DNA of 64,000 nucleotides from Methylocystis sp. IM3 (lineage in GTDB: Bacteria; Pseudomonadota; Alphaproteobacteria; Rhizobiales; Beijerinckiaceae). The DNA lies in contig NZ_JBBPBZ010000002.1 in the NCBI RefSeq assembly GCF_038070105.1, forward strand, positions 488,501 to 552,500. The letters are read 5' to 3'. A program made the translations under genes and the position numbers. Positions 41,571 to 58,478 of the stretch are shown piece by piece (the first letter of the stretch is position 1; each line of letters opens with the position of its first letter). Under the pieces are notes generated by a model. The model worked only from the letters and a program-made list of their open reading frames with translations, did no database searches and had not been told where the DNA came from.

Positions 41571-41576
41571 GATCGC

Positions 41577-42279
41577 TCAGCCGCCCCCGAGCGTGCGGAC
41601 GGCGGCGCGCTGCGACGCGTCCAGCATGTCATAGGCCGCGGTGGCGTTTTCAAAGCTGCGATGCGCCAGGATGAGCTTCGTGATCTCGCTCACGGCGCTG
41701 ACGTTGGCGTTTTCGAGGTGGCCCTGCGCCACGCCGTTGAGCGTGAAATTGACGACCGCCGTCGCGGGCGTCGACGGGACGACGCTCGAATTTTCAGCCC
41801 GGCGCAGCGTCGCCGCCGGGTCGATCTCGAAGAGGCCGATGGCGCCGAACTGGCGCTCGCCCTGCTGGATCATGCCGTCGCGAAAGATCATCGGCGCGCC
41901 GCCGGTCGGGTCGAGCACGATGGGCGCATTGCCCGCGTCGAGCACGGGGTAGCCGAGCAGCGTCTGCACCTCGCCCGTCTCCAGCATCTTGAAACGGCCG
42001 TCGCGGGTATAGGCCACGCCCTGAGGCGTCTGAATCCCGAACCAGGCGTCCCCGATCACGGCGACGTCGAAGGGGTTGTCCGTCTTGGTCAGGCCGCCGG
42101 AGGCGCGCGAGATGAAATCTGCGCCGGCGGAAGCGTAGGCGGTCGGCGCGGGCGACGTTTTCGACAGGACCGTATCGAAGCTCACGCCCGTGGCGCGATA
42201 GCCGACGGTCGAGGCGTTGGCCACATTCTCCGCAATCGTCGTCAGACGCTTGTCCAATGCGACCTGCGAGGAGAGCGTA
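41577..42279 (-). pseudogene. flgF: flagellar rod protein FlgF, 5' end removed by element 2
   Basis: The body matches FlgF (proximal rod): LTTIAENVANAST near the N-terminus, VIGDAWFGIQTPQGVAYTRD and the C-terminal FENATAAYDMLDASQR. The first residues (start codon, ribosome site and about seven codons) are missing here and lie at 57191-57210. Joining the two at the 11-bp repeat gives 723 nt (241 codons with stop) in frame. The sequence upstream of 42269 is foreign and has an in-frame stop, leaving at best a TTG at 42257. FlgF is therefore most likely not made correctly in this configuration. Confidence 0.93.
42269..42279. repeat. att site of element 2, flgF side
   Basis: AGGAGAGCGTA, identical to 57180-57190. 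On the minus strand it codes TLS within FlgF. Confidence 0.88.
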
Positions 42280-42426
42280 TCCTCGAAGTCCTAGTCCGCA
42301 GGCTTCCGCCTTCGTTTCTAGAATACCAGAGATTTGACGCGTTTCAAGGTTCGTTGTTCCTTGCGAGTCCGTGCCTGTCCACTATAATCCAGGCTAAATT
42401 GGGGGACTACCCGGGGGGCTGGCGAC

Positions 42427-43626
42427 TTGGCAGGACGCTTGACGGCGAGAAAGGTGGCGACGGCCGGGCCCGGAGCATGGCTTGATGGCGACGGCCTTTA
42501 CCTGATCGTCTCCGAGTCGCTCTCGCGGACATGGGTCTACAGGTTTTCCTTTGGCGGACGACGCCCCGAGATGGGCCTGGGCTGCGTCGCCGATGGCGTC
42601 GGGCTTGCCGAGGCTCGCGCGCTGCGTGACGAGGCGAAACGCCTTCGCCGCCTCGGCATTAATCCGATAGACGAACGCCGTCGCTGGCAGCACGCGCGAG
42701 CTGGTCGCCTGACCTTTGGGCAGGTCGCGGACGAATTGTTCGCAACGAAAGAGCCGACGTGGCGGCACCCTGGGCACGCCAGGCAGTGGCGCGCGTCTCT
42801 TATTGAAGGCGCGGCCGCCCTCCGTCCGCTCCCGGCCGACGAGGTGGACACGGAGGCTGTGTTACGTGTCCTGAAGCCGCTTTGGACAAAGACGCCGGAA
42901 ACGGCCTCACGGCTGCGTTCCCGAATTGAGGCCGTCCTCGACGCCGCGACAGCACGCGGATTGCGAACAGGCCAGAATCCCGCGGCGTGGCGTGGCCATC
43001 TCGCTCATCTCCTACCGCCGCCGCGGCATAGGCTCTCGCGCCAGCATTATGCGGCGCTCCCTTATGAACGCGTCCCCGAACTTGTAGCACTTCTCCGCGC
43101 CGATGAAACGATAACCGCGCTGGCGCTGGAGTTCCTGCTTCTGACGGCGGCTCGCAAGGCCGAAGTGCTCGGCGCTACCTTCGAGGAATTCGACTTGGAA
43201 GAGCGCGTTTGGGTTGTCCCCGCGTCTCGAATGAAGTCGGCACGTGAGCACAGGGTCCCTCTGTCGACGCGAGCCGTGGAAATTGTTTTCGAAGCCCGAG
43301 GACGCCGCTTGTCCGATTACGTATTTCCGGGCCGTTCTCGTGGGCGTCCTATGTCGGCATTCACCTTTCATGAACTGCTGAAGAGGCTGGGCTTAATCGA
43401 AGCCACGACGGTTCACGGCCTGAGATCGACCTTCCGCGACTGGGCCGGAAACGAAACGCATTTCCCCCGAGAGCTGGCGGAAGTCGCTCTCGCCCACGTT
43501 GTCGGTGACGCGACTGAGCGCGCTTACCGGCGTTCCGATGCTCTCGAAAAGAGACGCGCGCTGATGCAAGCGTGGGCCGATTACGTCACACAGAACGAGA
43601 AATACGAACCCGCGAGCCAGCCATGA
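42427..43626 (+). CDS. tyrosine site-specific integrase (DUF4102 / P4-type)
   Basis: The 399-residue integrase has an N-terminal DUF4102 arm-binding domain (AGPGAWLDGDGLYLIVSESL), a core-binding domain and a catalytic domain. The catalytic residues are visible: arginine in LLLTAARKAEVLG, HxxR in TVHGLRSTFRDWAGNETHF, a histidine in VALAHVVG and the tyrosine in TERAYRRSD. A TTG at 42427 is used, with a G-run ribosome site just upstream. It points away from flgF and should catalyse recombination at AGGAGAGCGTA. It is clearly distinct from the element 1 integrase. Confidence 0.93.
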   Translation: MAGRLTARKVATAGPGAWLDGDGLYLIVSESLSRTWVYRFSFGGRRPEMGLGCVADGVGLAEARALRDEAKRLRRLGINPIDERRRWQHARAGRLTFGQVADELFATKEPTWRHPGHARQWRASLIEGAAALRPLPADEVDTEAVLRVLKPLWTKTPETASRLRSRIEAVLDAATARGLRTGQNPAAWRGHLAHLLPPPRHRLSRQHYAALPYERVPELVALLRADETITALALEFLLLTAARKAEVLGATFEEFDLEERVWVVPASRMKSAREHRVPLSTRAVEIVFEARGRRLSDYVFPGRSRGRPMSAFTFHELLKRLGLIEATTVHGLRSTFRDWAGNETHFPRELAEVALAHVVGDATERAYRRSDALEKRRALMQAWADYVTQNEKYEPASQP

Positions 43627-44363
43627 CAAATTGCAGGCTGAAAAAAGGGCGAGCGCCAGTCGCTCGCGTTAAGTCGGTCTGGATCGGAAATGCGGACAAA
43701 AATCAGCTTGGCGATTTACTCGAAGAGTTGCAGAAAATTCTACCGGGGACGAAATTTCAGCACGAGAAATTCGCGGCCGGAGCTGCTCAGGCTTTCCAGT
43801 TTTACGAAAAGTTCGCTCTCCCACATCAACGCGAAATGGAAGTTAGAGCACGAAAGTTTGAGCGCCTGCAAAAGGCCGCGTCGGAATATAGAGAGGCAAT
43901 CGAGGGATTAGACGGAGGTAGCTGGGGGGAGCTTTCCGAGCGCTATTTTCTCGATACTCGCAAATTTGAACCATCGGACGATAATCTAGTCGTCGATAGA
44001 CAGCTTCAGAAAGCTCGCGCCGATATCGGGGAATTAAAGAACTCTGGCGATATTGCAGGACGCGCAGCAAGTGCCGCCGGCGCACTTCTAACGCAGAAGA
44101 TTTGCGCGGTGTCTGAGAGCCGCACCGACCCGGCCGTAAGGACGTTGGTGAAAGACATCGCAGTTGCGTATGACCGCGTATTTGGCGAGCGCCCAAGTCC
44201 GGCAAAACAAGGGATATTCGTGAGGACCCTTCGGGCGATTTTGCAAACGGCTAATGTTACCATGCCCGAGGAAAAGGCGCTCACCACGATCCTCCGCGAC
44301 GCTGATCTAATCGGGACGCCACCGAAGAGGGGGCGTAAAGCAAGGAAGGAAAATACCGCGTAG
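43623..44363 (+). CDS. hypothetical element protein
   Basis: The 246-residue soluble protein has a helical middle (REMEVRARKFERLQKAASEY) and a basic end (PPKRGRKARKE). Its start overlaps the integrase stop (ATGA), so the two are co-translated. Base composition is more AT-rich than the host genes. No family recognised. Confidence 0.65.
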   Translation: MTNCRLKKGRAPVARVKSVWIGNADKNQLGDLLEELQKILPGTKFQHEKFAAGAAQAFQFYEKFALPHQREMEVRARKFERLQKAASEYREAIEGLDGGSWGELSERYFLDTRKFEPSDDNLVVDRQLQKARADIGELKNSGDIAGRAASAAGALLTQKICAVSESRTDPAVRTLVKDIAVAYDRVFGERPSPAKQGIFVRTLRAILQTANVTMPEEKALTTILRDADLIGTPPKRGRKARKENTA

Positions 44364-44396
44364 GGGCTTTCGACTTTCTTCGCCTACGCGGTTTTT
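44355..44396 (+). terminator. terminator of the integrase operon
   Basis: Ten-base perfect arms ACCGCGTAGG (44355-44364) and CCTACGCGGT (44383-44392) are followed by a T-run at 44392-44396. The stem includes the stop of the gene ending at 44363. Confidence 0.85.
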
Positions 44397-44467
44397 GCGC
44401 AGTAAATCTTCCGCCACTCTCCATGTTAGGCCGCGCAATCCAGCGCGGATAGCAGTGGAGAAAGTGA

Positions 44468-44695
44468 ATGAAAGCAACTGCGCCCACTATCGCCCAACGC
44501 CTAATCGTCGGCGGGTTCCTGAGCATCGCCGAGTTGTGCCAGTTCAAAGGCACGTCGAAGTCTGTTGTTTACGAGGATATCGCCGCCGGTTTGCTCCCTG
44601 TGGAGAAATTCGGTCGGGCTACCCGCATCGCGGGGCCGGTCGCGCGCGACTATATCCCGCGCCGCGGTGTCGTGAAGACGGAGGCGGCGGCTTAA
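44468..44695 (+). CDS. AlpA/excisionase-like DNA-binding protein
   Basis: The 75-residue product has a MerR/AlpA-type helix-turn-helix (GGFLSIAELCQFKGTSKSVV, then YEDIAAGLLPVEKFGRATRI). It is comparable to the 29889-30128 gene of element 1. It is the first gene of the plus-strand replication operon and a candidate excisionase or activator. The ATG at 44468 is preceded by a GGAGAAAG motif. Confidence 0.7.
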   Translation: MKATAPTIAQRLIVGGFLSIAELCQFKGTSKSVVYEDIAAGLLPVEKFGRATRIAGPVARDYIPRRGVVKTEAAA

Positions 44696-44698
44696 TCC

Positions 44699-44911
44699 AT
44701 GCCCCCGAAAGCAAAGAGCCCGCCGGGGGATAAGACCGGCGGGGCTCATGGGATTTGTCAGCTCGGCAGCGACGCCCACGAGTTTATCAAAACCTCACCC
44801 GACCTCGCAACCCGTCGCGCCGCCTTTCTTGCGCGCCGCTTCCGTTTGTTACCCGCTATGGCCATCGCCGTGGCGGAGATCGCCTTCACGACTTTGGAGG
44901 CGACGCGATGA
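44699..44911 (+). CDS. small hypothetical protein
   Basis: This 70-residue protein has a basic N-terminus and a helical hydrophobic C-terminal part (RFRLLPAMAIAVAEIAFTTL). It overlaps the next gene by four bases (ATGA), supporting its reality. Function unknown. Confidence 0.55.
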   Translation: MPPKAKSPPGDKTGGAHGICQLGSDAHEFIKTSPDLATRRAAFLARRFRLLPAMAIAVAEIAFTTLEATR

Positions 44912-45333
44912 AATTGGTTCCTTCTTTAACCCGCAAGATCGCCACGATGATCCCCCGACTGGCTTCGGATTACGAGGGCGAAATTGTCGCGACCGCGCGA
45001 GCGATTGGTCGCGTGCTTAATGGCGCCAATGCAGACTGGCACGACGTGGTTGTTGCGTTCGAGCGCGGAGCCGTCGCCCCTGAAAATGTCAGAAAAAAAG
45101 AGCCGCGCCGTAGCAAACATTCCGACCGCCAAAGCGTCCGTAGCTGGTGGGAACTCGATGATGACGAACGCCTAGAAGCGGTTGATTACTTGATCCAGCA
45201 AAAATGGCTGAGCGCTTGGGAGCGCACATTCATCGAGTCAATCGCGGATCAGCTCCATCGCCATGACCTCACCGACAAGCAGATTGCCGTTGTCGATCGC
45301 CTTCTCGCCCGCGCTTTCCGTGGAACACGCTAA
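44908..45333 (+). CDS. hypothetical element protein
   Basis: The 141-residue acidic/helical protein starts at ATG 44908, overlapping the preceding stop. Notable segments are VRSWWELDDDERLEAVDYLI and LSAWERTFIESIADQLHRHD. The stop overlaps the primase start by one base. It is probably an accessory replication factor; no family recognised. Confidence 0.6.
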   Translation: MKLVPSLTRKIATMIPRLASDYEGEIVATARAIGRVLNGANADWHDVVVAFERGAVAPENVRKKEPRRSKHSDRQSVRSWWELDDDERLEAVDYLIQQKWLSAWERTFIESIADQLHRHDLTDKQIAVVDRLLARAFRGTR

Positions 45334-47720
45334 TGAAATTTTCGCACTCTGAAACGATTGGCGCCTTTCGCGACGCTATCATCATGAATTTGGGGACTGC
45401 GCCGAAGGAAATAATCGCGGACGGCGCTCTGCATAGGTTCCCGACGAAGGCCGGCAATGACACGGCTGGGTGGTATAAACTTCACTTGGACGGTATTCCG
45501 GCCGGAGCATTCGGCGATTGGCGAAGAAACGACGCATCCTTCAAATGGTCGGCGCGCGGTTCCGAACCTCTCCCGCAAAAAGAGCGGGACAGGCTGGAAG
45601 AGGAAATCAGGCAGCGCGAGGCGGAGCGCGAGCGCAAGGCGGAGGAGGCCGCCGAAAATGCGCGCCAGATGTGGCAGGACGCCGGTCTCGGCGCATCGGC
45701 GTCGCACGCTTACCTTGCCAAAAAACAGATAGGGCCGAACGGAGCCCGTGAACTCAACGGCGAATTGCTGATCCCGATAACGGACGGCGAGCGCATCTTG
45801 AACCTGCAGCGCATCGCGCCGAGCGGAGAAAAGCGTTTCCTGCTGGGCGGTCGCGTGACGGGGCTCTATTACACGCTTGGCGCGCCGGGCGAGCGCATCG
45901 TCGTTTGCGAGGGCTTCGCGACTGGCGCCAGCATTTTTGAGGCGACGGGCCTTTGCATCGCCATTGCCTTCAACGCCGGCAACCTCGGGCCGGCAGCGCG
46001 TGCCATCCGTGAGCACCATCGGAATGCGCGCATCGTCATTGCCGCCGATGACGACTTTAAAACGGATGGCAATCCGGGACTCACCAAGGCGCGGGAAGCG
46101 GCCGAGAAAGTTGGCGCTTCCGTCGCAGTCCCGCCGTTTAATCGTGGAGACGGCGACGATGGCACGGACTGGAACGACTTCGCGATCAAGCGCGGTAAGG
46201 CCGCTGTCAAGCAAGCTTTCGAGGTGGGCGACAAGGCGACTGCCGGCGGGCGCGAATGGCTTGAGCCGAAGCCGCTTCCCTGCGGGCTGCTCCCAGTCAT
46301 GCCGTTTGCCCTCGACTACCTGCCGGAAAGCATTTCGGCGTGGGTGGGCGACATTTCCGACCGGATGCAGTGTCCCCCGGATTTTGTCGGCATCGCCGCT
46401 ATCGTTGCGCTCGGTTCCGCATTGGGCCGGAAGGTAGGCATTCGACCGCAAGCTCAGACTGACTGGACCGAGGTTCCTAACCTGTGGGCCTGCATCGTCG
46501 GGCGCCCGGGGGCAATGAAGTCGCCCGCTATGCAGGAAGCTTTGAAGCCTCTGCATCGCCTCGAAGCCAATGCCCGTAAGGATCATGAAGAGCAGTTGAA
46601 GGAATATGAAGCCAACGTGGCGCTCCACAAGATTGGGAAGGACATACAGGCCGCGCGGGCGCGCGATGCGTTGAAGAAGGGACTGAGCACCGATGGCATT
46701 CTCCTATGCGGAGAGCCGGAAGAGCCAAAGGCCAGGCGGTTTGTTACTAACGACACGACATATGAAAAGCTGGGCGAAATCCTCGCTGATAATCCTGATG
46801 GGGTGCTCGCGTACCGTGACGAACTGATATCGCTTTTGAAGACGCTCGACCGCGAGGAATATGCCGGCGCCCGTGGATTCTATCTGACCGCCTGGGGCGG
46901 CACGCAGGGCTATGCCTTTGACCGGGTGACGCGCGGCAAAACTCATATTGAGGCCGCGTGCGTCTCGATGCTCGGCTCTACACAGCCGGGGCGGCTTGCC
47001 GAGTATATCGGCCGCGCTACGACGGGCGGGTCGGGCGATGATGGGATGATCCAGCGCTTTAGCCTTTTGGCATGGCCGGATCAGTCGCCCGCATGGCGCG
47101 ACGAGGACCGCTATCCGCTTACTGAGCCCCGCCGACGGGCCTATGAGACTTTTGGCAGTTTTGGCAGTTATGATCCTTGTGCTTTTGGGGCGACGCAGGA
47201 GGAAGAAGGGCTCCCCTATTTCCGCTTCGCCCCGGCCGCTCTCGACGCTTTCAGAGAATGGAGGGCGGATTTAGAGAAGCGGCTTCGCTCCGGGGAACTG
47301 TCCCCAGCGCTTGAAAGCCACCTGTCCAAGTTTCGTAAAACCGTCCCGGCGCTCGCGCTTATCAATCATGTCTCTGATGGTGGGCGTGACGCCATCGGAG
47401 AGACGGCCGTCCTGCGGGCGCTCGCCTTTGCCGAATACTTGGAGAGCCACGCCCGCCGCGCCTATGCAGCCGGAGGCGAGACCGAAACGACCGCTGCTAC
47501 GGCTATACTGAAGCGTATCCGCTCCGGCGACCTGAAGGACGGATTCACGACCCGCGAGCTGTGGCGCAACAAATGGAGCGGCCTAACCGATCTGGAGCAT
47601 GTGAAGGCGGGCGTCTGGCTCCTGGCGGACCTCAACTATCTAGCACCCACCAAAAAGGATGGGACGGGTGGAGGTCGCCCTACCACAACCTTCACTGTTA
47701 ACCCGAGGGCGCTGGCATGA
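45333..47720 (+). CDS. toprim / DUF3987 primase-like replication protein
   Basis: This 795-residue protein has an N-terminal PriCT/zinc-less region and a coiled stretch (about residues 80-115). Its toprim domain spans about 155-290 (IVVCEGFATGASIFEATGLC, acidic ADDD). The DUF3987 domain (about 320-740) has PNLWACIVGRPGAMKSPAMQ in place of a P-loop. It shares the C-terminal half with the element 1 protein, but has toprim instead of prim-pol. The gene contains a TTTTGGCAGTTTTGGCAGT repeat at 47150-47168. Confidence 0.85.
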   Translation: MKFSHSETIGAFRDAIIMNLGTAPKEIIADGALHRFPTKAGNDTAGWYKLHLDGIPAGAFGDWRRNDASFKWSARGSEPLPQKERDRLEEEIRQREAERERKAEEAAENARQMWQDAGLGASASHAYLAKKQIGPNGARELNGELLIPITDGERILNLQRIAPSGEKRFLLGGRVTGLYYTLGAPGERIVVCEGFATGASIFEATGLCIAIAFNAGNLGPAARAIREHHRNARIVIAADDDFKTDGNPGLTKAREAAEKVGASVAVPPFNRGDGDDGTDWNDFAIKRGKAAVKQAFEVGDKATAGGREWLEPKPLPCGLLPVMPFALDYLPESISAWVGDISDRMQCPPDFVGIAAIVALGSALGRKVGIRPQAQTDWTEVPNLWACIVGRPGAMKSPAMQEALKPLHRLEANARKDHEEQLKEYEANVALHKIGKDIQAARARDALKKGLSTDGILLCGEPEEPKARRFVTNDTTYEKLGEILADNPDGVLAYRDELISLLKTLDREEYAGARGFYLTAWGGTQGYAFDRVTRGKTHIEAACVSMLGSTQPGRLAEYIGRATTGGSGDDGMIQRFSLLAWPDQSPAWRDEDRYPLTEPRRRAYETFGSFGSYDPCAFGATQEEEGLPYFRFAPAALDAFREWRADLEKRLRSGELSPALESHLSKFRKTVPALALINHVSDGGRDAIGETAVLRALAFAEYLESHARRAYAAGGETETTAATAILKRIRSGDLKDGFTTRELWRNKWSGLTDLEHVKAGVWLLADLNYLAPTKKDGTGGGRPTTTFTVNPRALA
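47150..47168 (+). repeat. TTTTGGCAGT tandem repeat unit
   Basis: TTTTGGCAGTTTTGGCAGT inside the DUF3987 gene. Two more copies of this 19-base unit, facing each other, lie at 47776-47818. Confidence 0.8.
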
Positions 47721-48079
47721 GCCGCTACTTGCAAAAGCTCCGCGCCCTCACCGAGCAAAAACACACACCTGAGCCACTGCCAAAACTGCCAAAAGGGGGT
47801 TTTGGCAGTAATGGCAGTTCCGAGGGTTTATGTTTTTCGCCGGATGATGCGCATCCGAGGGAGGAGGCCAGCGCAGAAAGTCCGTCTTCCCCGAAGCCAA
47901 TTTACGACCCCGAGGCCCTCCAGTCCATCGCTGATCGCCGCAATGAAGCCGCCCGAAAGGGTGGGATAAGCGACCGTTGGTGTCGATGCGGCGCATTGGC
48001 AATGATGGCGTGGCCCGAGGGGAACAGGCGTGAGGTTTGGCGTTGCGACGACTGCGCGCCGGCGCGGGGTAGAGCATGA
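47717..48079 (+). CDS. small zinc-motif protein
   Basis: The 120-residue protein has a low-complexity N-terminal half and a C-terminal four-cysteine motif (WCRCGALAMMAW ... WRCDDC). It closely resembles the zinc motif of the element 1 SSB fusion. It overlaps the primase stop by four bases and the next gene by four, so it belongs to the replication operon. It may be the partner that, in element 1, is fused to the SSB. The inverted TTTTGGCAGT repeats lie within it. Confidence 0.65.
   Translation: MSRYLQKLRALTEQKHTPEPLPKLPKGGFGSNGSSEGLCFSPDDAHPREEASAESPSSPKPIYDPEALQSIADRRNEAARKGGISDRWCRCGALAMMAWPEGNRREVWRCDDCAPARGRA
47776..47818. repeat. inverted pair of TTTTGGCAGT units
   Basis: The 19-base arms (47776-47794 and 47800-47818) match at 17 of 19 positions around a GGGGG centre. 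The left arm is the exact reverse complement of 47150-47168. Confidence 0.85.
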
Positions 48080-48756
48080 CCGCCGCCCGCCTCGCCAAGC
48101 TGGAAAAAATCCTCGCTTTGCATGAGGACCCCGCGGCTACCGAAGGCCAGCGTCAGGCGTGCCGCCATGTCGGCGGCCGGCTCGCCGCCGACCTCGGGAT
48201 CGAATTTTCGCGGGAGGCCATCGAACGGGCTTCCTATTACCACTGCGCCTCATCGAGCAGCTGCAACGTCGATTTCGACATAGACGCATCGATGCGCGAG
48301 TGGATGGCAATGTCGCAATCCCAGCGACAACGCGAAATGGACGAAATCGAAAAGACTGTCGCCGCCTGGAGGGAATGCGAAGTCGATCGCGCTCGCGCCT
48401 GTGAAGTGGAATCAACCCGCCGTGACGAAGAGAGGGCTCGCAAAAAGGCGCAACGCGCGGCCGAAAGGGCCGAGCGCAAGGCGGAGAGTGAAAGGCGAAA
48501 GCGCGTTATCGGTGGCGAAGCGCCGCCGCAGTGGGACGATATAGATGCCGACCATCTCGATTGGTTGAGCCGTATTGAGGCTCTCTGCCTCTGTGACGAA
48601 GATATTGAACTTGTTCGCCTGATCCGGTCTTCCGTTCGCAACGGCTGCTTGGGGCTATTTGGAGATAGTCGAATCCGCGTTGATGCGCTGTTGCGGCGCG
48701 CGTTTGAGCGCGACCGAGCAATGCTGCCCGGCTCCAGCGCCATGGCTGTGCCTTGA
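48076..48756 (+). CDS. coiled-coil hypothetical protein
   Basis: The 226-residue protein has a strongly charged coiled coil at about residues 85-155 (EERARKKAQRAAERAERKAE) between a helical N-terminus and a C-terminal domain. It overlaps the zinc-motif gene by four bases. Residues 1-60 resemble the DUF2786-like start of some phage proteins (LAKLEKILALHEDPAATEGQ); this is a weak impression. Function unknown. Confidence 0.6.
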   Translation: MTAARLAKLEKILALHEDPAATEGQRQACRHVGGRLAADLGIEFSREAIERASYYHCASSSSCNVDFDIDASMREWMAMSQSQRQREMDEIEKTVAAWRECEVDRARACEVESTRRDEERARKKAQRAAERAERKAESERRKRVIGGEAPPQWDDIDADHLDWLSRIEALCLCDEDIELVRLIRSSVRNGCLGLFGDSRIRVDALLRRAFERDRAMLPGSSAMAVP

Positions 48757-49105
48757 TAATTCTGCGCTCGCCCTGCCGGAGGGGGGGGGTTATTCTTGAG
48801 CGGTTTAATCGGGAGCGGCTACCGGCGATGGGCTCACGCAGAGAATTTTTCGCGCTGGGGAACAAAATCAAATCAGGCCGAAAACTAGGTGTGGGTCGAA
48901 GACTTCGGATTAACTTCCTAGCCCCTCGGAAATGCTTCCTAGTCGCGCCTGAACACGGACGAGGCGCCAGTCGCCCCTTTTGGAATACTAGCGGAAAAGC
49001 AAATTCAAAAAATTCAAAAAATCAAACGGACATGCGACGTAACGCGTTGAAGTTAAAAGCAAACTTGAAACTCTTTGAAACTTCGGAAACTTGGGAAAAC
49101 TTCGG
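48757..49105. other. AT-rich repeat-containing intergenic region
   Basis: This 349-base stretch carries no supported gene. From about 48990 it is AT-rich with short tandem motifs: AATTCAAAA twice near 49003-49020, and GAAACTTC/GAAACTTG-type units repeated from about 49065 to 49106. It may hold promoters or a packaging/replication site. Confidence 0.45.
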
Positions 49106-49567
49106 ATGGAAATCACTTCGGGAGCCGAAATCAACGCGAGCGACGAAAGCGCGCCTATAAACCCCGCCGAGCGGATTAGCCGCGCGCCATCGAAGAAGCG
49201 CGGCCCCGCCCGCTGGGAGATCGGCCCCGATGGCGTGCCCATGGTGCAGGGCTTCTACACGATCCCGCAGGACCTCGCGGACGCCATCGACGCCTTGCCG
49301 CCCGAAGCACGCTACGTCGCCATAAAGGGGGTGTGGAGCGGCTATAGCGCCGGGCGGCGCGCGGCGGCCGCGCCAGTCCCGTCATGGCGCAAGCGCAAGA
49401 CGCGGATTGAGGCCCTGCGCGCTCTGGCGGCCGAAAAGTTCCCTGGGCTCGAGGGGCGCACGCTCTCAAACGAGGTCCAGAACTACCTATTCCGCCACGA
49501 GGCGTTCGCCCGCGAGATCGGCGCCTATGACATATCATATTCGACCATTCGGCGGGCCGTCGAATAA
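49106..49567 (+). CDS. hypothetical element protein upstream of capsid
   Basis: The 153-residue soluble protein (start ATG 49106; an upstream TTG at 49091 is less likely) contains VPMVQGFYTIPQDLADAIDA and a basic C-terminal helical region (PSWRKRKTRIEALRALAAEK). Its position before the capsid region could suit a small terminase or head factor, but no motif proves it. Confidence 0.55.
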   Translation: MEITSGAEINASDESAPINPAERISRAPSKKRGPARWEIGPDGVPMVQGFYTIPQDLADAIDALPPEARYVAIKGVWSGYSAGRRAAAAPVPSWRKRKTRIEALRALAAEKFPGLEGRTLSNEVQNYLFRHEAFAREIGAYDISYSTIRRAVE

Positions 49568-49619
49568 GTGGCTCATTTTTCAGGATGATTTGAGCCAGGC
49601 GGTGCGCTCTCATGTCGCC

Positions 49620-50300
49620 ATGACGAGAGCAGCAACCGCCATGAAACTCACCCCGCCCGCACACCACACCCACGCGCCGAGCAAGCCCGATCGCGAGCAC
49701 ATTCTCGACGCGATCGAACGCAGCGAAATCGGCAGCAAAATTCGCGCCGAGCTGGCCGCGTCGCGCTTGCGTGAACGGACGGCGCTACGTCGCGCCCTCG
49801 AAAAAGCCGACGCCGCGCTGTCAGCCGAGATCCCGGAACTCGAACTCGCAATTGAACGCGCCGTCCAGGCCGTTCGCGAGGCTGAGCTCGCCTGGGCGGA
49901 TGCGATTTCGAGCGCGCGAATTGCTCGTTCGGCGAAAGCAAGCGCGATCTTCGAACACGACCGACTTGTGCAGCTTTACGCTGGCGAACTCCGCGAAAAT
50001 TGCTCCCCCGAGGTAGCAGAGTTTGCGCGCTGGCTTCTCGACGAAACCTACGGGTTGCGTAAGCATCTGGTGATCGATCGCAACATCGAAATGACTCTCG
50101 TCGGCAAGCGCGAGACCGTGACAAGCAACTCATCCGCTCTCGCGGCGCGTCAGAAAGCCATCATTCGTATTCTGCAAGAGGAGGTTCCGCTCCTCCAGAT
50201 CGAACCCGATGACGCCGCCGCCACGGCGAAAATCGCCGCGCTCAAAGAGGCGCTCCCGAAAATCGAAAACACGGTGACGACCGATGACGAAGCCCGTTAA
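49620..50300 (+). CDS. coiled-coil protein preceding the capsid gene
   Basis: This 226-residue protein is dominated by heptad-like helices (residues about 45-115, ALRRALEKADAALSAEIPEL and following). It ends 17 bases inside the capsid gene. Scaffold-like coiled-coil proteins or delta domains often precede HK97 capsids, so a scaffold role is possible; this is inference. An ATG at 49641 is an alternative start. Confidence 0.55.
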   Translation: MTRAATAMKLTPPAHHTHAPSKPDREHILDAIERSEIGSKIRAELAASRLRERTALRRALEKADAALSAEIPELELAIERAVQAVREAELAWADAISSARIARSAKASAIFEHDRLVQLYAGELRENCSPEVAEFARWLLDETYGLRKHLVIDRNIEMTLVGKRETVTSNSSALAARQKAIIRILQEEVPLLQIEPDDAAATAKIAALKEALPKIENTVTTDDEAR

Positions 50301-51417
50301 TTTTCCCGCCAACCGACGCGGTAGCGCCGCACGCGAAGTATACTCGATCGATGAACTGAAGGAGGTCGCGCGCACGGGCGGCCGGACCGTTTTTGCGAGC
50401 CTCGGCGACATGGCCCGCGCCGCGCTCGATTCCGGGATCTTTGAAACGCACAATGACCGTCTCGCGCGGGCTTCTCTTGAGCGCGCGCCGCAGGGCATGG
50501 GCGAAGTCGATCCGGCGAGCGGCGGCTTCCTTTTCGCTCCCGAATATGAGCGGAAGTTCCTGCAATCGCTTTATGAAGCAGCGCCAATTTTGAGCCGCTG
50601 CATGGTTATCGAATCGTCAGACGGACGGCCCCACAAGTTTCCTCGAATTGACGAAACCTCGCGCGCCGATAATCTTCGTTTCGGCGGCGTCGTCTCGACA
50701 TGGGTAGACGAAGGAACGCAGCCAACTGCCGGAAAGCCGAAAGTCGAGATGATCGAATTGACGCCACGCAAGGTCTTGGCTATCGCATGGGCCACGAACG
50801 AGCTCGTGATGGATTCCGATGATCTTCTGAGCCCGTTTTTGGAGCGCAGTTTCACCGGTGAACTGGCATACCGGATCGAAGACGCCATCGTTAAAGGCAC
50901 GGGGGCCGGACAGCCTCTTGGCATTGTTCACAGCCCGGCGACTATCACAGTCGCGAAGGAAGTCGGGCAGGCTGGGGGAACAATCGTCAAAGAGAATCTC
51001 GACAAGCTTTTTGACGCGATTGCATATCCGCTGCGCTCGAGAGCCGTGTGGCTGATCGGCGAGGGCGTCGAGCGCCAGTTGAATAAAATCAACGCGACGA
51101 ATCCCGGAACCTTTTACTACGCTCGCCCGAGCGAAACGTCGGCCGATTGTTACGCGACGCTATACGGCCGCCCGGTGATCCCGACTGAAAACTGCCCAGC
51201 GCTCGGTTCCCTGGGCGACATCATCCTCGCCGACCTGAGCCTCTACACGTTGCTGCGAAATACCGGCATCGCCGTGAGCGGACACGCAGGCTTTACCTCC
51301 GATCAATCCGTGTTCCGCGCAGTCTGCCGCGTCGATGGAGCGCCGTTGCTCGGCGCGCCGGTGACTGCGACGGATGGAACGCAGCGCAGCGCCTTCGCGA
51401 CGCTGGCAGCGCGGTAA
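50284..51417 (+). CDS. HK97-family phage major capsid protein
   Basis: This 377-residue capsid protein has a short N-terminal arm instead of a full delta domain, then the typical HK97-fold sequence. ERKFLQSLYEAAPILSRCMV is followed by the E-loop/P-domain region, DAIVKGTGAGQPLGIVHSPA, KENLDKLFDAIAYPLRSRAV and AVWLIGEGVERQLNK. Length and motifs fit phage_capsid (PF05065). No portal or protease genes are adjacent, so this is an isolated capsid module as in some capsid-forming satellites, or a relic. Confidence 0.88.
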   Translation: MTKPVNFPANRRGSAAREVYSIDELKEVARTGGRTVFASLGDMARAALDSGIFETHNDRLARASLERAPQGMGEVDPASGGFLFAPEYERKFLQSLYEAAPILSRCMVIESSDGRPHKFPRIDETSRADNLRFGGVVSTWVDEGTQPTAGKPKVEMIELTPRKVLAIAWATNELVMDSDDLLSPFLERSFTGELAYRIEDAIVKGTGAGQPLGIVHSPATITVAKEVGQAGGTIVKENLDKLFDAIAYPLRSRAVWLIGEGVERQLNKINATNPGTFYYARPSETSADCYATLYGRPVIPTENCPALGSLGDIILADLSLYTLLRNTGIAVSGHAGFTSDQSVFRAVCRVDGAPLLGAPVTATDGTQRSAFATLAAR

Positions 51418-52578
51418 TTGAGATTTGTTTTCGCGCTTAGTGTCATACGGCGCGAAATTGGCGGGGCGCATTTGAACTTAACGTTCATGCGCTCCGCCTG
51501 CAGGGAATCCGCCGGCCTGAGAACGGCGGAACTGGCGCCCGGGGATTGGTCTCCCTGGGCCGATGCGCGCCCCTCTTGCCGGCGACGCGCAACGGGCGCG
51601 GGCAGCGTAACCTCGTAGTCGCTGCCCGCGTCGCCACCTCAGTCTCACCTCATCTAGGGGAGTGAATGGCCGTGTCCGCAGCAGAAAAATCAGGGTCACG
51701 CCCGTCTCGCCTTATTCGGATTTCTATGACGCTGGCGAGCCTTGCGCGGGTGATTAAGCCGAGCTGATGGAGGCGAGATAACGAAAGATGGAAGACGTGA
51801 AAAAGGGAGCCAAAGCGGTTGCAGCCGTCGAGGCTCCCAGACAGAAGCTAGACAGCTTCCAGCCTCCCCAGACTAAAGGTCCAGACGCCGAGCTACAAGA
51901 GCGGCGCGTCCTTTACGTAAAGCGGAAAGGGGTGTGTCAGTCCCTAGCGTCGGCGATCGCCTCCCACGCCTTCAAGGCGGGTGGACCGCGATGATGGCGC
52001 CCCGTTGGGACTCTCTCACGTTCGCCTAGCGAGAGGTTTGGATCGCCGCCATCGGCGGCCTCGTGCGCTGCTACATCCTGTCGCGGAAATCGAAGCGCCA
52101 GCGGATAGTTGGATCTCGGTTCTCGACACCTTGGCGAACGACCGCAAGCTTCAGGCGCACGCCGGGGCTTCCCCCCGTCTTTGCTATTACAGACGCATCG
52201 GATGCTTCTTTTGTCGACCTTTAAAAGCTACGCATACGCTTTGGTCCAATTGTCGGGCGCACGCCCGATGGCCCTTAGAGCAGGTTAAGTTGGTCGCCAG
52301 TTCGGTTCGTTGTATTGCGGCGGCATGGTAATCTGAATGTCTCGCCCAACAATATGGCTATCCAACACCGAAACGCCCGCTTGTATTGTCCGCAACGGGA
52401 GCTAATGCAGCTCCGCACGTTGCCCTAGCCAGTTCAACATGTCACATTTTCACGCCGTGGAGCAGAGACTGGCTTACGCTTCCCTTGAGTTGTTTCGGCC
52501 TCTGGGTGAAGGCGAAGGTATTTCTGATTTGCGGCCAGTGTTTAGTCGCGCGAAATTGCCAACAGCTGGGGCGGTCCT
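51418..52578. other. apparently decayed region after the capsid gene
   Basis: No intact recognisable gene occurs in these 1161 bases. There is a perfect 11-base hairpin (51597-51607 / 51620-51630, CGCGGGCAGCG) after the capsid gene. A short frame at 51788-51994 (68 codons, MEDVKKGAKAVAAVEAPRQK) is possible but unsupported. Plausible coding fragments with internal stops occur around 51985-52220. The stretch looks like eroded head-tail genes. Confidence 0.45.
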
Positions 52579-53334
52579 ATGAAAAAGAAGAATGACCAGT
52601 TCTTCCTTCAAGGTGTGTATCTAATTGCCCTGTTCGTATTGTGCGGCTTGTCCCCAGCAATTGCTAACTGTCGTCATCTCAAACCAACAGGCGATGGTTA
52701 TTGCATCACGCCCGGGCAAGAGAAAACAGATGATGCATCGACTGAGTGGCATTTTAATAACGGTTGTGAAAAACGCATCACTGTATGTGCCTACAACCGT
52801 TTAGGGAGACGAATTTGCGACGGAATCGCATTGGGAGACGGCCATATTACTTGCACGCGGTTTGGCAGCACTCCTAGTTGTCCTTTTCAAGGAGGTTGGT
52901 TCGAAGTGGGTTGCGATAACGAGAGCGGCGGCATGAAGCCGACACAACAGTTGCCGCAGCGCCAGATATCCCATGGTTCCGGTGGCGGCGGCGGAGGGAC
53001 GCCCGCTGAAGGACCCGGCTCCCCCGGTTGGACACGCGAGAAATACGAGAGCGGTAGATCGAGTGGACGAGGGAATAACGGCTATTCCTCGCCGGATATA
53101 TGTGCAGCATGGAGAGCGGCTCTGACATCAGCCTCTGGGCAACTTGATAGCTGTAACGGGCAATGCAACGCTGTTTTTACTGGGGCGTTGGCGAGAGCTC
53201 GCTCCGACGCTGATCGCAACAACGCGCTCCGCATCGCTAACTCATGCACTGCTTCCTGCTACCAGCAGCAAAATAGATCAAACAGACTAAACGCCTCGAG
53301 AATCGGCGTGAGAAGATGTCCGCCAGCACAGTAA
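52579..53334 (+). CDS. secreted cysteine-rich protein (cargo)
   Basis: The 251-residue protein has a signal peptide (about residues 1-29, YLIALFVLCGLSPAIA) and a mature part with about 18 cysteines. The first domain (about 30-115: NGCEKRITVCAYNRLGRRIC, then TCTRF...SCPFQGGWFEVGCD) and the last (about 170-250) are separated by a glycine-rich linker. The even number and pairing of cysteines suggest disulfides in the periplasm or outside. It is AT-richer than host genes. Probably a lysogenic-conversion-type cargo gene of element 2; function unknown. Confidence 0.7.
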   Translation: MKKKNDQFFLQGVYLIALFVLCGLSPAIANCRHLKPTGDGYCITPGQEKTDDASTEWHFNNGCEKRITVCAYNRLGRRICDGIALGDGHITCTRFGSTPSCPFQGGWFEVGCDNESGGMKPTQQLPQRQISHGSGGGGGGTPAEGPGSPGWTREKYESGRSSGRGNNGYSSPDICAAWRAALTSASGQLDSCNGQCNAVFTGALARARSDADRNNALRIANSCTASCYQQQNRSNRLNASRIGVRRCPPAQ

Positions 53335-53450
53335 GATAATTGGTGCTAATCGGCGCAAGGGTGTGCTCTACAGGCAACCCTCTTCCCCTTACCAGAGAAC
53401 GCCCCTGCCGTGGATATCGGAGGGCATTGTCTATTGGGGCGTCACGCGTC

Positions 53451-53651
53451 CTAGGGTCGGCCTCCACCATGCGACGCGCATCTACCTTTCTTGCCAGCTT
53501 CCGATGCAAGAGCGGAGTTCTTGGAAAATGACCGGTTCGCAGGGTTGACGCTCTGCCCGCCCTTGCGGCCGGCGGCGGCGGCAAGCTCAGGATTTTGCGA
53601 GTAGCTACGCTTTTCGGCTGGAACGCTCTTCCCGCCTTTGCTGGCGCGCAT
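53451..53651 (-). pseudogene. 5'-truncated KGG-repeat protein fragment
   Basis: The frame encodes KGGKSVPAEKRSYSQNPELA, AAAGRKGGQSVNPANRSFSK and a third degenerate unit. It is a close copy of the intact KGG gene at 54114-54389, but lacks its first about 28 residues. The break falls at about 53642-53648, exactly where the ParB-like frame on the other strand begins. This marks a recombination junction. Confidence 0.65.
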
Positions 53652-54137
53652 AGGTTGGCGGCGATCAAGAAACTTGGAAGGGAAAGCATTGACGCGCTCG
53701 TTGTAACAATTGACGATCTGCGCGCCGAACTGGCGATGATCGACGAGAACCTGATGCGCTCAAATTACACCCCGGCGCAACAGGCGGCGGCCGTCTCGCG
53801 TCGGAAAGCGATATATGAGGAACTACACCCGGAGACTCGGGCTGGCGTATCTGGTGGTAAGGCTCGTCAAAAATCAGCAAGCGACAATTTGTCGTTTGCT
53901 GAAATTACTGCCGAAGCAACAGGAAAGGACCGTCGCACAATTGAACGCGCCGCCGCACGCGGCAAGGCCCTTGGAGACGATATTGATGGACTAGAGGGAA
54001 CGAGCCTCGACAAGGGATATGAACTCGACGCACTTGCTAAGATGACACCCGACGAACGCAAGCCTCTCATAGACCGCGCCAAGGCCGGCGAGCGCGTCTC
54101 GGCGCGCGCGGACTCAGCTTTTGCTTTTCCCGCCTGA
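53595..54137 (+). pseudogene. N-terminally truncated ParB-like protein
   Basis: From about residue 17 the product matches ParB/sulfiredoxin-type proteins: GAHRLAAIKKLGRESIDALV (the GxHRxxA box), DENLMRSNYTPAQQAAAVSR and a helix-turn-helix-like SFAEITAEATGKDRRTIERA. The usual N-terminal strands are missing. The first 16 residues read through the antisense of the KGG fragment. It may be expressed but is probably a remnant. Two CGACA/TGTCG palindromes lie nearby. Confidence 0.6.
53874..53902. repeat. palindrome within ParB-like gene
   Basis: Fourteen-base arms (53874-53887 and 53889-53902, core GCGACAA/TTGTCGT) match at 13 of 14 positions around one base. The core resembles the palindrome at 56123-56151. 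Confidence 0.65.
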
Positions 54138-54389
54138 ATGCGATGCGGCGCCGCCCTTCTTTCCTGCGCTAGAAGCAAGCTCGGCGCTGCGCGAAAAGGA
54201 TCGTTTTTTCGGATCGACGGCCACACCGCCCTTGCGCCCGGCAGCGGCGGCTAAATCGGCGCTTTGCGAGAAGCTGCGCTTCTCCGGCGGGACGCTCTTC
54301 CCGCCGAGGCTGGCGATCTGCCGCCGCTTTTCCGGATCCATGGAAGCGAAGCCGCGCTTGCCCTTCGGTTTTGGTTCTAATTCGTTCAT
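54114..54389 (-). CDS. KGG-repeat stress-type protein
   Basis: This 91-residue basic, low-complexity protein has three KGG units: RRQIASLGGKSVPPEKRSFS, AAAGRKGGVAVDPKKRSFSR and SAGKKGGAAS. It matches the stress-induced KGG-repeat family (general stress protein/con-10-like). Such genes occur on chromosomes and mobile elements. It overlaps the end of the convergent ParB-like frame by 24 bases. A truncated copy lies at 53451-53651. Confidence 0.75.
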   Translation of the reverse strand: MNELEPKPKGKRGFASMDPEKRRQIASLGGKSVPPEKRSFSQSADLAAAAGRKGGVAVDPKKRSFSRSAELASSAGKKGGAASHSGGKSKS

Positions 54390-54450
54390 GGCCCGCCGTT
54401 TCCTTCTTCGCGCAGTAATACATAAGCTGCGCTATTTGCAAATGGCGGGC

Positions 54451-54690
54451 CTATGCGCCGGCCTTCGTTTTCCGCAGCCGCACGCCCGGCCCCTCGCCGT
54501 TCTCGTCGACGAAGATGACGCCGGCCGCTTCGAGGGCGGCGCGCATGGCGGAGATCGCTTCTTCGCTCCCGCCGTATCTGCCCGTTTCGAAATTCGAGAT
54601 CGTGTTTCGATGGACGCCCGACGCGGCGGCCAAGTCCGCAAGGGACCAGTTCAAGGCGGCTCTAGCCATCCTCACTTGTGCAGGCTTCAC
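54451..54690 (-). CDS. XRE-family repressor of element 2
   Basis: The 79-residue helix-turn-helix regulator (ARAALNWSLADLAAASGVHR, then NTISNFETGRYGGS) has a C-terminus AAGVIFVDENGEGPGVRLRK, nearly identical to the tail of the element 1 XRE protein. I chose the GTG at 54690, which follows AAGGA and gives KPAQVRMARAAL, the usual family opening. The first operator overlaps this start, so autoregulation is likely. It diverges from the small-membrane-protein operon. Confidence 0.85.
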   Translation of the reverse strand: MKPAQVRMARAALNWSLADLAAASGVHRNTISNFETGRYGGSEEAISAMRAALEAAGVIFVDENGEGPGVRLRKTKAGA

Positions 54691-54721
54691 AAGTCGCAAT
54701 CCTTGTGCTAGTTTCACAAGT
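54674..54721. promoter_or_regulatory. twin operator sites CTTGTG-N7-CACAAG
   Basis: Two identical-pattern palindromes lie at 54675-54693 and 54702-54720 (centres 27 bases apart), with an additional CACAA half-site at 54730-54734. They occupy the divergent promoter region between the XRE repressor (start 54690) and the plus-strand operon (start 54796). Confidence 0.85.
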
Positions 54722-54795
54722 GCAAATATCACAACCCGCTCTTAGGAGCAACGCCGGGGAAATGCCCTTCCCGGCGAACGGGAAAGGCTTATCCA

Positions 54796-54888
54796 ATGCT
54801 CAGAAAAACAATCGACGCAATGCTTTGGCTCCAGCTAGCCGCGTCGCTCGCCCTGGTCGCCGCCGTGATCGCTGGGGGTTTAATATGA
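54796..54888 (+). CDS. 30-residue membrane peptide
   Basis: MLRKTIDAMLWLQLAASLAL and a further short hydrophobic stretch form one membrane helix. The stop overlaps the next start (ATGA). It is the first frame of the operon controlled by the twin operators. It is small, but the coupling supports it. Confidence 0.5.
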   Translation: MLRKTIDAMLWLQLAASLALVAAVIAGGLI

Positions 54889-55013
54889 GCTGGCAATCGA
54901 CCGCGACGCTGATCGCCCTCGCGCCGCTCGCGCCCTTGTGGGCAGCCTTCACGATCGCCGAGACGCGCCGCGCCGTCGCCGCCGTTCGCAAAGGAGGCCG
55001 CAATGGCCGCTAA
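54885..55013 (+). CDS. small membrane protein
   Basis: This is a 42-residue protein: hydrophobic helix MSWQSTATLIALAPLAPLWA then a basic end (RRAVAAVRKGGRNGR). It is similar to the 56-residue protein at 30856-31026 of element 1, which holds the same position opposite the repressor. It overlaps its neighbours by four and eleven bases. Confidence 0.6.
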   Translation: MSWQSTATLIALAPLAPLWAAFTIAETRRAVAAVRKGGRNGR

Positions 55014-55221
55014 GCCTCTTGAACGTCGCGACATCGAGGACGCGTTGGACAAAATCAGGATACATCTTCGCGGCCTTAGCTTGGCAATTTATGGGCTCGC
55101 CCATGCAATCGGCGACAATGAGCCTGGCGACGCCATGTCCGCCATCCTCGACGGAGCCATGGGCGAGCTGGAAAGCCTAGGGAAGCGGATTGCCCGCGAG
55201 CAGGAAGAGGAAGAGCAATGA
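55003..55221 (+). CDS. small acidic hypothetical protein
   Basis: This 72-residue helical protein ends in a glutamate-rich tail. It contains RRDIEDALDKIRIHLRGLSL. It overlaps the next gene by four bases. Function unknown. Confidence 0.6.
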   Translation: MAAKPLERRDIEDALDKIRIHLRGLSLAIYGLAHAIGDNEPGDAMSAILDGAMGELESLGKRIAREQEEEEQ

Positions 55222-55457
55222 GCAACGTCGGAGAGAAAATCCTTCACGCGCCCTCCCGCGCGAAATGCCTCGAAGGGCTAGAAGATCACGTTCGTATAAC
55301 GGCCCGCCTCGCGCGCGCGATTTACGTGGCGGTTTCGAACGAAAACATTTTCATAGACGAGCGGGATCACCTCGCCGTTTTGGAGCTGGCCGACTCCCTC
55401 GCGGACCATGCCAGCGCCGCGCTTCACGTTCTGTATACGAAGGACGGCAACAAATGA
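55218..55457 (+). CDS. small hypothetical protein
   Basis: This 79-residue soluble helical protein (KCLEGLEDHVRITARLARAI) has four-base overlaps on both sides. It is part of the early operon of element 2. No family recognised. Confidence 0.6.
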   Translation: MSNVGEKILHAPSRAKCLEGLEDHVRITARLARAIYVAVSNENIFIDERDHLAVLELADSLADHASAALHVLYTKDGNK

Positions 55458-55618
55458 GCCTTCTCTGGCGCCGCGACCTCCTGGCCCGCCTTGCGATCGC
55501 CAAGGCGCTACTGCGCGCGGCCTACCTAACCGACCGGCCGAACCGGCTTCTCGCCGCGATCGGGAAGCGCATACTGGAATCGTGCGAAGCGCAAGCGGCG
55601 CGTCGCGGCTTGTCTTAG
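55454..55618 (+). CDS. small basic hypothetical protein
   Basis: This 54-residue basic helical protein (SLLWRRDLLARLAIAKALLR) starts at ATG 55454, overlapping the preceding stop. It is the last gene of the early operon, before the terminator at 55674. Confidence 0.55.
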   Translation: MSLLWRRDLLARLAIAKALLRAAYLTDRPNRLLAAIGKRILESCEAQAARRGLS

Positions 55619-55673
55619 CGGAATCAGTGAGTTAAAACATCAGCAGTGCCTGAGCTGCGCGCCGGGCTCATAG

Positions 55674-55709
55674 ACGCCCCGACCACGGATGAACTGGCGG
55701 GGCGTTTTT
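55674..55709 (+). terminator. terminator of the element 2 early operon
   Basis: Arms ACGCCCC (55674-55680) and GGGGCGT (55699-55705) have a T-run to 55709. The motif, including loop and tail, nearly repeats at 56043-56077. Confidence 0.8.
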
Positions 55710-55719
55710 CATTCTGCGG

Positions 55720-55932
55720 TTATTCGCGGCAGACCCACACCCATCCCTCTCCCGGGTCCCATTCCCAGCAAACACTATGGACGTGGCGTCCCTCCTGACG
55801 GCTCCAATCGCGGTGCATGTGCCGATAATGGCCCCCAATGTCTTGCTCGTCACCTTCGCGATAGCCTTGCGCTATCGCCGGAACGCTGATCGCTAGCGAT
55901 AAAGCGGCAATCAAAAAGGCGATCTCACGCAT
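55720..55932 (-). CDS. small secreted protein
   Basis: The 70-residue protein has a signal peptide (MREIAFLIAALSLAISVPAIAQ). Its short mature part is rich in histidine and tryptophan (HYRHMHRDWSRQEGRHVHSV; two cysteines), which could bind metal. GGGGAGGA lies a few bases before the ATG at 55932. It is an isolated gene between two near-identical terminators and a probable cargo gene. Confidence 0.6.
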   Translation of the reverse strand: MREIAFLIAALSLAISVPAIAQGYREGDEQDIGGHYRHMHRDWSRQEGRHVHSVCWEWDPGEGWVWVCRE

Positions 55933-56042
55933 GTCATCCTCCCCTCTCACTCCGCCTTATTGGCGCAGGCGGGCGTGGCAATTCTCAAAGTAGTGCCTCC
56001 CCTAAAGCCGGCAATGGACATATCTCGCGCCGCCTCTCCTGC

Positions 56043-56077
56043 CGTCCCGACCGTGGATGTATCGGCGGGGCGTTTTT
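56043..56077 (+). terminator. second copy of the terminator
   Basis: A near-copy of the 55674-55709 structure with a weaker stem (CGTCCCG against CGGGGCG) and the same GGGGCGTTTTTCAT tail. The pair brackets the small secreted gene. Confidence 0.6.
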
Positions 56078-56122
56078 CATGCCGCCCCTTGATTTCAAAC
56101 AGCCGAAAAGCCGGGGGGAATA

Positions 56123-56151
56123 GAGCTAAACGACAAAATGTCGTTTAGCTC
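56123..56151. repeat. perfect 29-base palindrome
   Basis: Thirteen-base perfect arms GAGCTAAACGACA and TGTCGTTTAGCTC flank an AAA loop, between the terminator copy and the 3' end of the replication gene. No T-run follows on either strand, so it is more likely a protein-binding site than a terminator. Confidence 0.8.
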
Positions 56152-56189
56152 GCTAGCGGTTCGCCCACTCGACAAAGTCCTTATCCGTG

Positions 56190-57068
56190 TTACGCAGCCT
56201 TCCGTGCTGGAGGCATTGGCGCCGGGAAGCGCCAGCCATCTCTGCTATCCCTTGGCGGCGTCACTCCCCTATGCTCCTTCCACCATGCAGACCAAGCATT
56301 CCAGCCGGGAGAGCCGGCCGCTAGCCATACGCCCGAAGGCTGAGAAGGCGCAGAGACAGGCGCAGCGTCGCGCCAGCGGCCTTCTGAGAGCCATCGGGCC
56401 GCCGAGCAAATAAACCGCTTCTCTCGGCCCGTTACGGCCGCCGCATAGGCAGCCGCCGCCGCAATAACCCGCTCCGGGTCCGCGCCCGCCGCGAGCGCCT
56501 TCCGCCACGCCACAATTGCCGGGGTCTGCGGATTGTCGTCGCCACGGTCGGGAAACGCCCCCCAAAAGCGACGAAAAGGACCTCCGTCACGCGTGACGCC
56601 GTCACGGTCGGGAGAGAGAGTTATTTGTGAATTTTTATATTCTATCTCTCTGTCACCGTGACGCGTCACGCTCTCCGTCACGGTCTCCGTCACGCCTCCC
56701 GCCACACGCCGCCGTTCCCTGTAGCGCCGTGCCCGTTCCGCGGCTGTGCGGTCCTTGACGGGGAAGGAGACGACCACGGCGCGCTCAACGGTTGGCCGGC
56801 GGCGCTCCCGGTAGGTAGGGATTAATGCGCCCTCCACCTCTTCGAGCAGGCCCGCGGCCTTCAGCTGCTCCAGCTGGCGCTCTACCGTTTTCTTGCCGGC
56901 GCGAAGGTGGAACGCCGTCTCAGACAGCGACGGGAGAGCGCCGCCGTAGCTCGCGGCTATAAGGTGAAGGTTTACCCAAGTCTTAAACAAGGTGGCCGGA
57001 AGCTCTTGGAGCTTCGGATCGGCGAGCATCGCCTCGGCTATTTCGGGAGGGAGTGAATCAAAAGGCAT
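56190..57068 (-). CDS. phage-type replication protein with winged-helix N-terminus
   Basis: The 292-residue protein has a winged-helix-like N-terminal domain (about residues 20-105: FKTWVNLHLIAASYGGALPS, then AGKKTVERQLEQLKAAGLLE). A basic linker with VTETVTESVT repeats follows, then a helical C-terminus (about 170-240). This resembles replication initiators or O-type proteins of phages. The linker-coding DNA carries repeated GTCACG sites around an AT-rich core, as in origins nested in lambda O. It reads toward the interior from the right end of element 2. Confidence 0.7.
   Translation of the reverse strand: MPFDSLPPEIAEAMLADPKLQELPATLFKTWVNLHLIAASYGGALPSLSETAFHLRAGKKTVERQLEQLKAAGLLEEVEGALIPTYRERRRPTVERAVVVSFPVKDRTAAERARRYRERRRVAGGVTETVTESVTRHGDREIEYKNSQITLSPDRDGVTRDGGPFRRFWGAFPDRGDDNPQTPAIVAWRKALAAGADPERVIAAAAAYAAAVTGREKRFICSAARWLSEGRWRDAAPVSAPSQPSGVWLAAGSPGWNAWSAWWKEHRGVTPPRDSRDGWRFPAPMPPARKAA
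56586..56694. other. candidate replication origin within the replication gene
   Basis: GTCACG or its complement occurs at 56586, 56592 (inverted), 56601, 56657 (inverted), 56665, 56677 and 56689, plus GTCACC at 56652. The last three direct copies are exactly 12 bases apart. An AT-rich core (about 56618-56646) lies between the two groups. Confidence 0.55.
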
Positions 57069-57179
57069 GGGGGGCGGCTCCGCTATAAACGTGCGGAAGC
57101 TGGCGGGTGGGCTGGGGGACTAACCCCTGAGCGTCGCAGTCATATCATTAAAAAACAACTAGATACGAAGCAACATTGC

Positions 57180-57190
57180 AGGAGAGCGTA
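57180..57190. repeat. att site of element 2, distal side
   Basis: AGGAGAGCGTA, identical to 42269-42279 and in the same orientation. Confidence 0.88.
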
Positions 57191-57210
57191 ACGTAAAAAG
57201 TTGGTTGCAT
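57180..57210 (-). pseudogene. displaced 5' end of flgF
   Basis: ATG at 57210 begins MQPTFYVTLS, the authentic FlgF N-terminus, with an AGGGC ribosome site upstream. The rest of the gene is at 41577-42279. Together they give an exact 240-residue FlgF. In the present state the frame runs into element 2 as MQPTFYVTLSCNVAS. Confidence 0.92.
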
Positions 57211-58448: not shown

Positions 58449-58478
58449 GGTTTCGCCAGCCCGTCGATTGGCTTTTGC

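Follow-up and report, generated by a model that had tools for sequence, protein, structure and literature searches.

The only flgF gene of Methylocystis sp. IM3 is split near its 5′ end by an integrative element of about 14.9 kb, lying in a 64,000-nucleotide stretch of contig NZ_JBBPBZ010000002.1 (positions 488,501 to 552,500; hereafter the window, with positions counted from its first letter). The combined observations very probably reflect a recent and potentially reversible insertion, in which a phage-satellite-like element was placed in flgF by its own integrase. According to this reading, the element would have entered IM3 recently, and its tyrosine integrase would have placed it at an 11-bp site spanning codons 7-11 of flgF, cutting the gene between its start and its body and blocking full-length FlgF for as long as the element is present, while reverse recombination with the help of an AlpA-like directionality factor would restore the gene exactly.

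The element comprises positions 42280-57179 plus one copy of the core. The 11-bp core AGGAGAGCGTA is present as exact plus-strand copies beginning at 42269 and 57180, as the initial annotation had claimed, and no other match with up to 1 mismatch was found in the window. flgF lies on the minus strand, with its body stopping at the left core copy and its ATG (57210) just outside the right copy. Joining the flanks around one copy of AGGAGAGCGTA gave an open reading frame (ORF) of 703 + 20 = 723 nt, which is divisible by three and consists of 240 codons and a stop with the start MQPTFYVTLSSQVALDKRLTTIAENVAN, again in agreement with the initial annotation. Pfam analysis of the flgF piece from 42257 identified the FlgE/F/G D1 domain, Flg_bbr_C, and a partial Flg_bb_rod motif.

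A natural counterpart of the joined sequence was found in genome G062, which is listed under the same species. There the left flank, a single core, and the right flank follow one another (L082:7791) and are identical across 111/111 bases compared, and its FlgF shares 100% identity with the joined protein over residues 1-240. The two genomes are colinear over window positions 37625-42279 (99.06%; 4,656 bases) and 57180-64000 (99.72%; 6,821 bases), the segments being joined in G062 at one core. The capsid of the element had no match in G062 at E ≤ 1e-20; the best match to its integrase had 56% identity, and a partial relative of its replication protein, 72% identical, is carried elsewhere in that genome. 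The exact empty site and the absence of the element from G062 confirm that the insertion in flgF is real and precise, and make it specific to IM3 between these two strains. The prediction that excision restores a 240-residue FlgF is thus upheld by sequence and by comparison with G062, excision itself not having been seen here.

The insertion leaves flgF with no normal start. The flgF frame inside the element is shut by a TAG at 42293-42291, followed by 11 sense codons without ATG, GTG, or TTG before a TTG at 42257, and this rules out a normal start supplied by the element, which provides no replacement ATG. The IM3 assembly contains one flgF and two weaker matches (28-30% identity); a second, compensating flgF was ruled out because Pfam assigned the two other matches to FlgG and FlgE. 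A partial survey of the rest of the genome found seven further flagellar ORFs intact, FlgE, FlgG, FlgI, FlgA, FlgK, and FliE being among them. Full-length FlgF is probably lost while the element sits in the gene. Because the protein forms part of the rod, IM3 is probably non-motile for want of it. In Escherichia coli O157, a single-base insertion in flgF was associated with non-motility (PMC7498637).

In genome G021, flgF heads the run flgF-fliI-ORF-flgH-fliL-fliP, divergent from fecR, and the same order is seen in the joined window. The initial annotation had proposed that the insertion removes the start codon, ribosome site, and promoter from the flgF body and from the operon behind it. The native upstream region does stay with the 20-nt fragment and is cut from both, but silence of the operon does not follow, since a promoter-like site (42347-42320, minus strand) faces the flgF body and the operon behind may still be transcribed from it. 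Two such sites were found in the region 42150-42600 compared with a mean of 0.0 (sd 0.2) in shuffled sequences; they are divergent and lie between the left attachment site (attL) and the integrase, no more than 110 bases into the element.

The features of the element and its ends are given in Table 1. Its G+C content of 60.1% is below that of the flanking host DNA (65.5% and 63.5%). Residues R243, K270, H330, R333, H357, and Y367 of the integrase, which we take to be the catalytic set of tyrosine integrases, are invariant in an alignment of 14 integrases. The inverted repeat at attL may represent the core sites of the integrase and the repeats near the element ends its arm sites. This inverted repeat is perfect at attL only, the joined element ends fitting 4/6 positions of its left half, and CTAGAWACGAAG was found in inverted orientation on both sides of the core. 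The AlpA-like ORF shows 47-50% identity to ORFs that neighbour related integrases or replication genes. ORFs of no recognised family lie between the replication and capsid genes. The integrase, replication, and capsid ORFs showed no visible frameshift. Terminase, portal, and tail families were absent among the ORFs scanned with Pfam and PHROG, a scan that did not cover all small ORFs. Judged by these genes, the insert appears to be a phage-satellite-like integrative element, which would presumably have a satellite lifestyle.

Table 1. Positions of the flgF pieces, attachment sites, and genes of the element in the window (aa, amino acids; attR, right attachment site).
Feature	Position	Strand	Basis or remark
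flgF body without its start, codon 7 third base to stop	41577..42279	-	joined 240-aa ORF; Pfam
6-bp inverted repeat CGAGGA/TCCTCG with 7-bp spacer GAGCGTA at attL; putative integrase core sites and crossover region	42267..42285		
attL core copy AGGAGAGCGTA	42269..42279	+	sequence match
CTAGAAACGAAG, inverted partner of CTAGATACGAAG, putative site	42310..42321	-	11/12 match
Promoter-like TTGAAA-16-TATTCT facing flgF body	42320..42347	-	consensus match only
Promoter-like TTGCGA-16-TATAAT facing integrase	42361..42388	+	consensus match only
TGGGGGACTA, putative arm-type site, left end	42400..42409	+	direct repeat of 57113-57122
Tyrosine integrase, 399 aa	42427..43626	+	Pfam Arm-DNA-bind_3, Phage_int_M, Phage_integrase
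246-aa ORF	43623..44363	+	no Pfam or PHROG family
75-aa AlpA-like helix-turn-helix ORF, putative directionality factor	44468..44695	+	Pfam HTH_17, below cutoff
Toprim and DUF3987 replication protein, 795 aa	45333..47720	+	Pfam; PHROG primase and helicase families
ORF ahead of capsid gene	49407..50300	+	no family; 75%-identical relative in the genome's second capsid element
HK97-type major capsid protein, 377 aa	50284..51417	+	Pfam Phage_capsid; PHROG major head protein
ParB-like ORF	53595..54137	+	PHROG, profile positions 101-275 of 337 only; no Pfam family
Replication-initiation-like protein adjoining attR	56190..57068	-	PHROG; no Pfam family
TGGGGGACTA, putative arm-type site, right end	57113..57122	+	direct repeat of 42400-42409
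CTAGATACGAAG, inverted partner of 42310-42321, putative site	57159..57170	+	11/12 match
attR core copy AGGAGAGCGTA	57180..57190	+	sequence match
flgF first 20 nt, ATG to codon 7 second base, outside element right end	57191..57210	-	same in G062

Searches of the genus, the order, phages, viral_contigs, and plasmids found no near-identical relatives of the element. Its DNA had no match among phages and a single 87-bp match among plasmids. Within the genus, no other integrase exceeds 61% identity; an order-wide integrase search (E ≤ 1e-138; 397 genomes) gave matches in the own genome and in G010 alone, and identity to phage integrases was at most 47% among the matches listed. The capsid is 88% identical to that of another element of the same genome, with identities of at most 40% elsewhere in the genus and at most 47% in viral_contigs. 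This other element (G000:C2 ~1890758-1905729; L049, L157) adjoins tRNA-Pro and is also satellite-like, its only recognised genes being the capsid and, after it, a tape-measure-like gene with no counterpart at the corresponding position of the flgF element.

We scanned 54 integrase loci (L034-L039, L051-L078, and L084-L103, excluding the own locus L033) with five flagellar proteins and found no recurrent targeting of flgF. Two of the 54 matched flagellar proteins, neither with an interrupted flgF: L036 corresponds to a second integrative element of the window, called Element 1, and matched fliP and fliL, while at L100 a seemingly uninterrupted flgF/flgG-like pair has a 32%-identical integrase about 7 kb away. 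The 34 of these loci that come from the own genome and genus were scanned for tRNA genes; 11 have one, in 10/34 within ~300 bp of the integrase start. The flgF element resembles the tRNA-adjacent Arm-DNA-bind_3 integrases in its three Pfam domains, in its catalytic residues, and in the location of the integrase at one end, adjoining the attachment site. In contrast to these, the site chosen is the 5′ end of a protein-coding gene, which is broken. With no related integrase among those examined at an interrupted flgF and with these tRNA-adjacent loci, targeting of flgF looks like a new specificity of the element's integrase.

In a sample of 298 genomes of the family, 135 had a strong FlgF match (E ≤ 1e-30), and among them only IM3 was interrupted near the start of flgF. 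Besides IM3, eight matches begin at residue 4-7 and the remaining ones at residue 1-3; all eight were fetched and have an in-frame ATG or GTG 3-5 codons ahead, none being broken there. The match in G651 stops early at unread contig bases, and its flgF start is intact. The initial annotation had named an unlike FlgF N-terminus in relatives as the observation that would speak against it; N-termini were homologous and started at the same position in all 11 same-genus loci read, the nearest being MQPAFYVTLSSQVALDKR. The 11-bp core matched at 11/11 positions in G062, 10/11 in the closest other species, and 5-9/11 in nine further loci (L009 and L010 were missed by the pattern used), so that the exact site is nearly species-specific. 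A FlgF match was found in just 11 of the 36 other same-genus genomes searched (G001-G036), some of which are incomplete, suggesting that flagella are patchily present and seemingly dispensable in the genus and that motility is seemingly readily lost.

The flgF element belongs to a known kind of insertion, one that splits a gene and is potentially reversible, and it has the attributes of a site-specific integrative element, namely a complete catalytic set, ends that share a short identical core, and a relative in which the site is empty. In the open-access literature searched, we saw no integrative element described within flgF. Gene-splitting prophages whose excision restores the gene are described for comK in Listeria monocytogenes and for spsM and sigK in Bacillus subtilis (PMC8987985, PMC13228054). 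Like these active-lysogeny prophages, the flgF element interrupts a coding sequence of its host at the attachment site, and its precise removal gives a whole gene. Unlike them, it targets flgF, occupies 1/135 genomes, is smaller, and lacks most phage genes, and its excision, like any regulation of it, is conjectural. Gram-negative phage-inducible chromosomal islands (PICIs) carry integrase and AlpA, replication, and late genes in that order, and helper-embedded PICIs interrupt a gene until excision (PMC10111431). The element is similar in having its integrase and AlpA-like ORF first, followed by replication and a late capsid gene, in its length of 14.9 kb, and in interrupting a gene; it differs from helper-embedded PICIs in that the gene is a host flagellar one and not that of a helper prophage. 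The primase-type replication zone of a PICI is recognisable from the Pfam and PHROG families of the replication protein. No Bro-N-type family appeared in the general scans of the ORFs, which included no search aimed at Bro. We call the element PICI-like and not a PICI because AlpA is weakly supported, with a score below the cutoff, and helper dependence is only putative.

Several points weigh against a recent, reversible insertion. The 11-bp repeat, taken alone, is not improbable and is weak evidence: shuffled windows gave a mean of 0.63 matches to AGGAGAGCGTA with up to 1 mismatch, and at least 2 matches in 15 of 100 shuffles. The AlpA-like ORF scores 20.9 against a 27-bit Pfam cutoff for HTH_17. 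The assembly has no excised form, with one flgF and one copy of the element integrase, and viral_contigs contained no sequence exactly matching the joined element ends. G062 could in principle have lost the element instead of never having had it. A chance repeat, which the repeat alone would be insufficient to reject, was ruled out by G062, where the empty site is exact. Excision is plausible, and a recent insertion that is possibly reversible, as distinct from one shown to be regulated, is most likely.

Compatible with such an insertion, and in our estimate quite possible though short of probable, is that the element has become unable to leave and flgF is lost for good. The ParB-like ORF is seemingly shortened, the tape-measure gene of the related same-genome element is missing, and the limited distribution of FlgF in the partly incomplete genomes of the genus suggests that flagella can be dispensed with. 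However, the integrase is intact, the element ends are exact, and the integrase, replication, and capsid ORFs have no visible frameshift. It is unlikely that the element acts as a regulated switch (active lysogeny), with condition-dependent excision restoring flgF and motility, re-integration being possible, and flagella being controlled by host or element. The exact restoration of flgF on joining the flanks, as in G062, the intact integrase, the AlpA-like ORF, the seven other intact flagellar ORFs, and the behaviour of published gene-splitting elements (PMC8987985, PMC13228054) are all consistent with a switch, whereas the single interruption among 135 FlgF-bearing family genomes, the absence of flgF targeting among the related integrases examined, and the lack of an excised form in the assembly or viral_contigs argue against it. 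Still more doubtful is a scenario in which a satellite recently moved its site to flgF and thereby created a motility switch, with settled cells occupied and an excising subpopulation that swims. Least probable of all is that the element's outward promoter drives a shortened FlgF from the in-frame TTG at 42257 and the flagellum is kept, since the promoter-like site at 42347-42320, although unexpected in shuffles, would yield a product without residues 1-14. Of the 31 positions of the Flg_bb_rod motif this product retains just 13-31, and the truncation falls in a start region conserved in 11/11 same-genus loci read.

Element 1 (23571-37645; core about CGGATCAGGCTTCCGAT) is likewise absent from G062. 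It sits in the last codons of fliP, where the final two residues of FliP are swapped for a 22-residue tail, so that a single flagellar operon is flanked by two elements, whose insertion is tolerated at the 3′ end and destructive at the 5′ end. Their integrases are different (34% identity), and that of Element 1 had no match in other genomes of the genus at E ≤ 1e-100, so that recurrent use of a fliP site is not indicated at this cut-off. Immediately to the left of Element 1 lie pmo/amo-type monooxygenase genes encoding subunits C, A, and B (19574-23042), which adjoin fliP in G062. Their presence makes the host a probable oxidiser of methane or ammonia.

Together, these results provide a clean case of gene interruption with a natural control, in which two strains of the same species share near-identical flanks, one occupied and one empty. 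Should excision occur, a mobile element would control motility in IM3; otherwise, the locus would represent a snapshot of flagellar loss through insertion.

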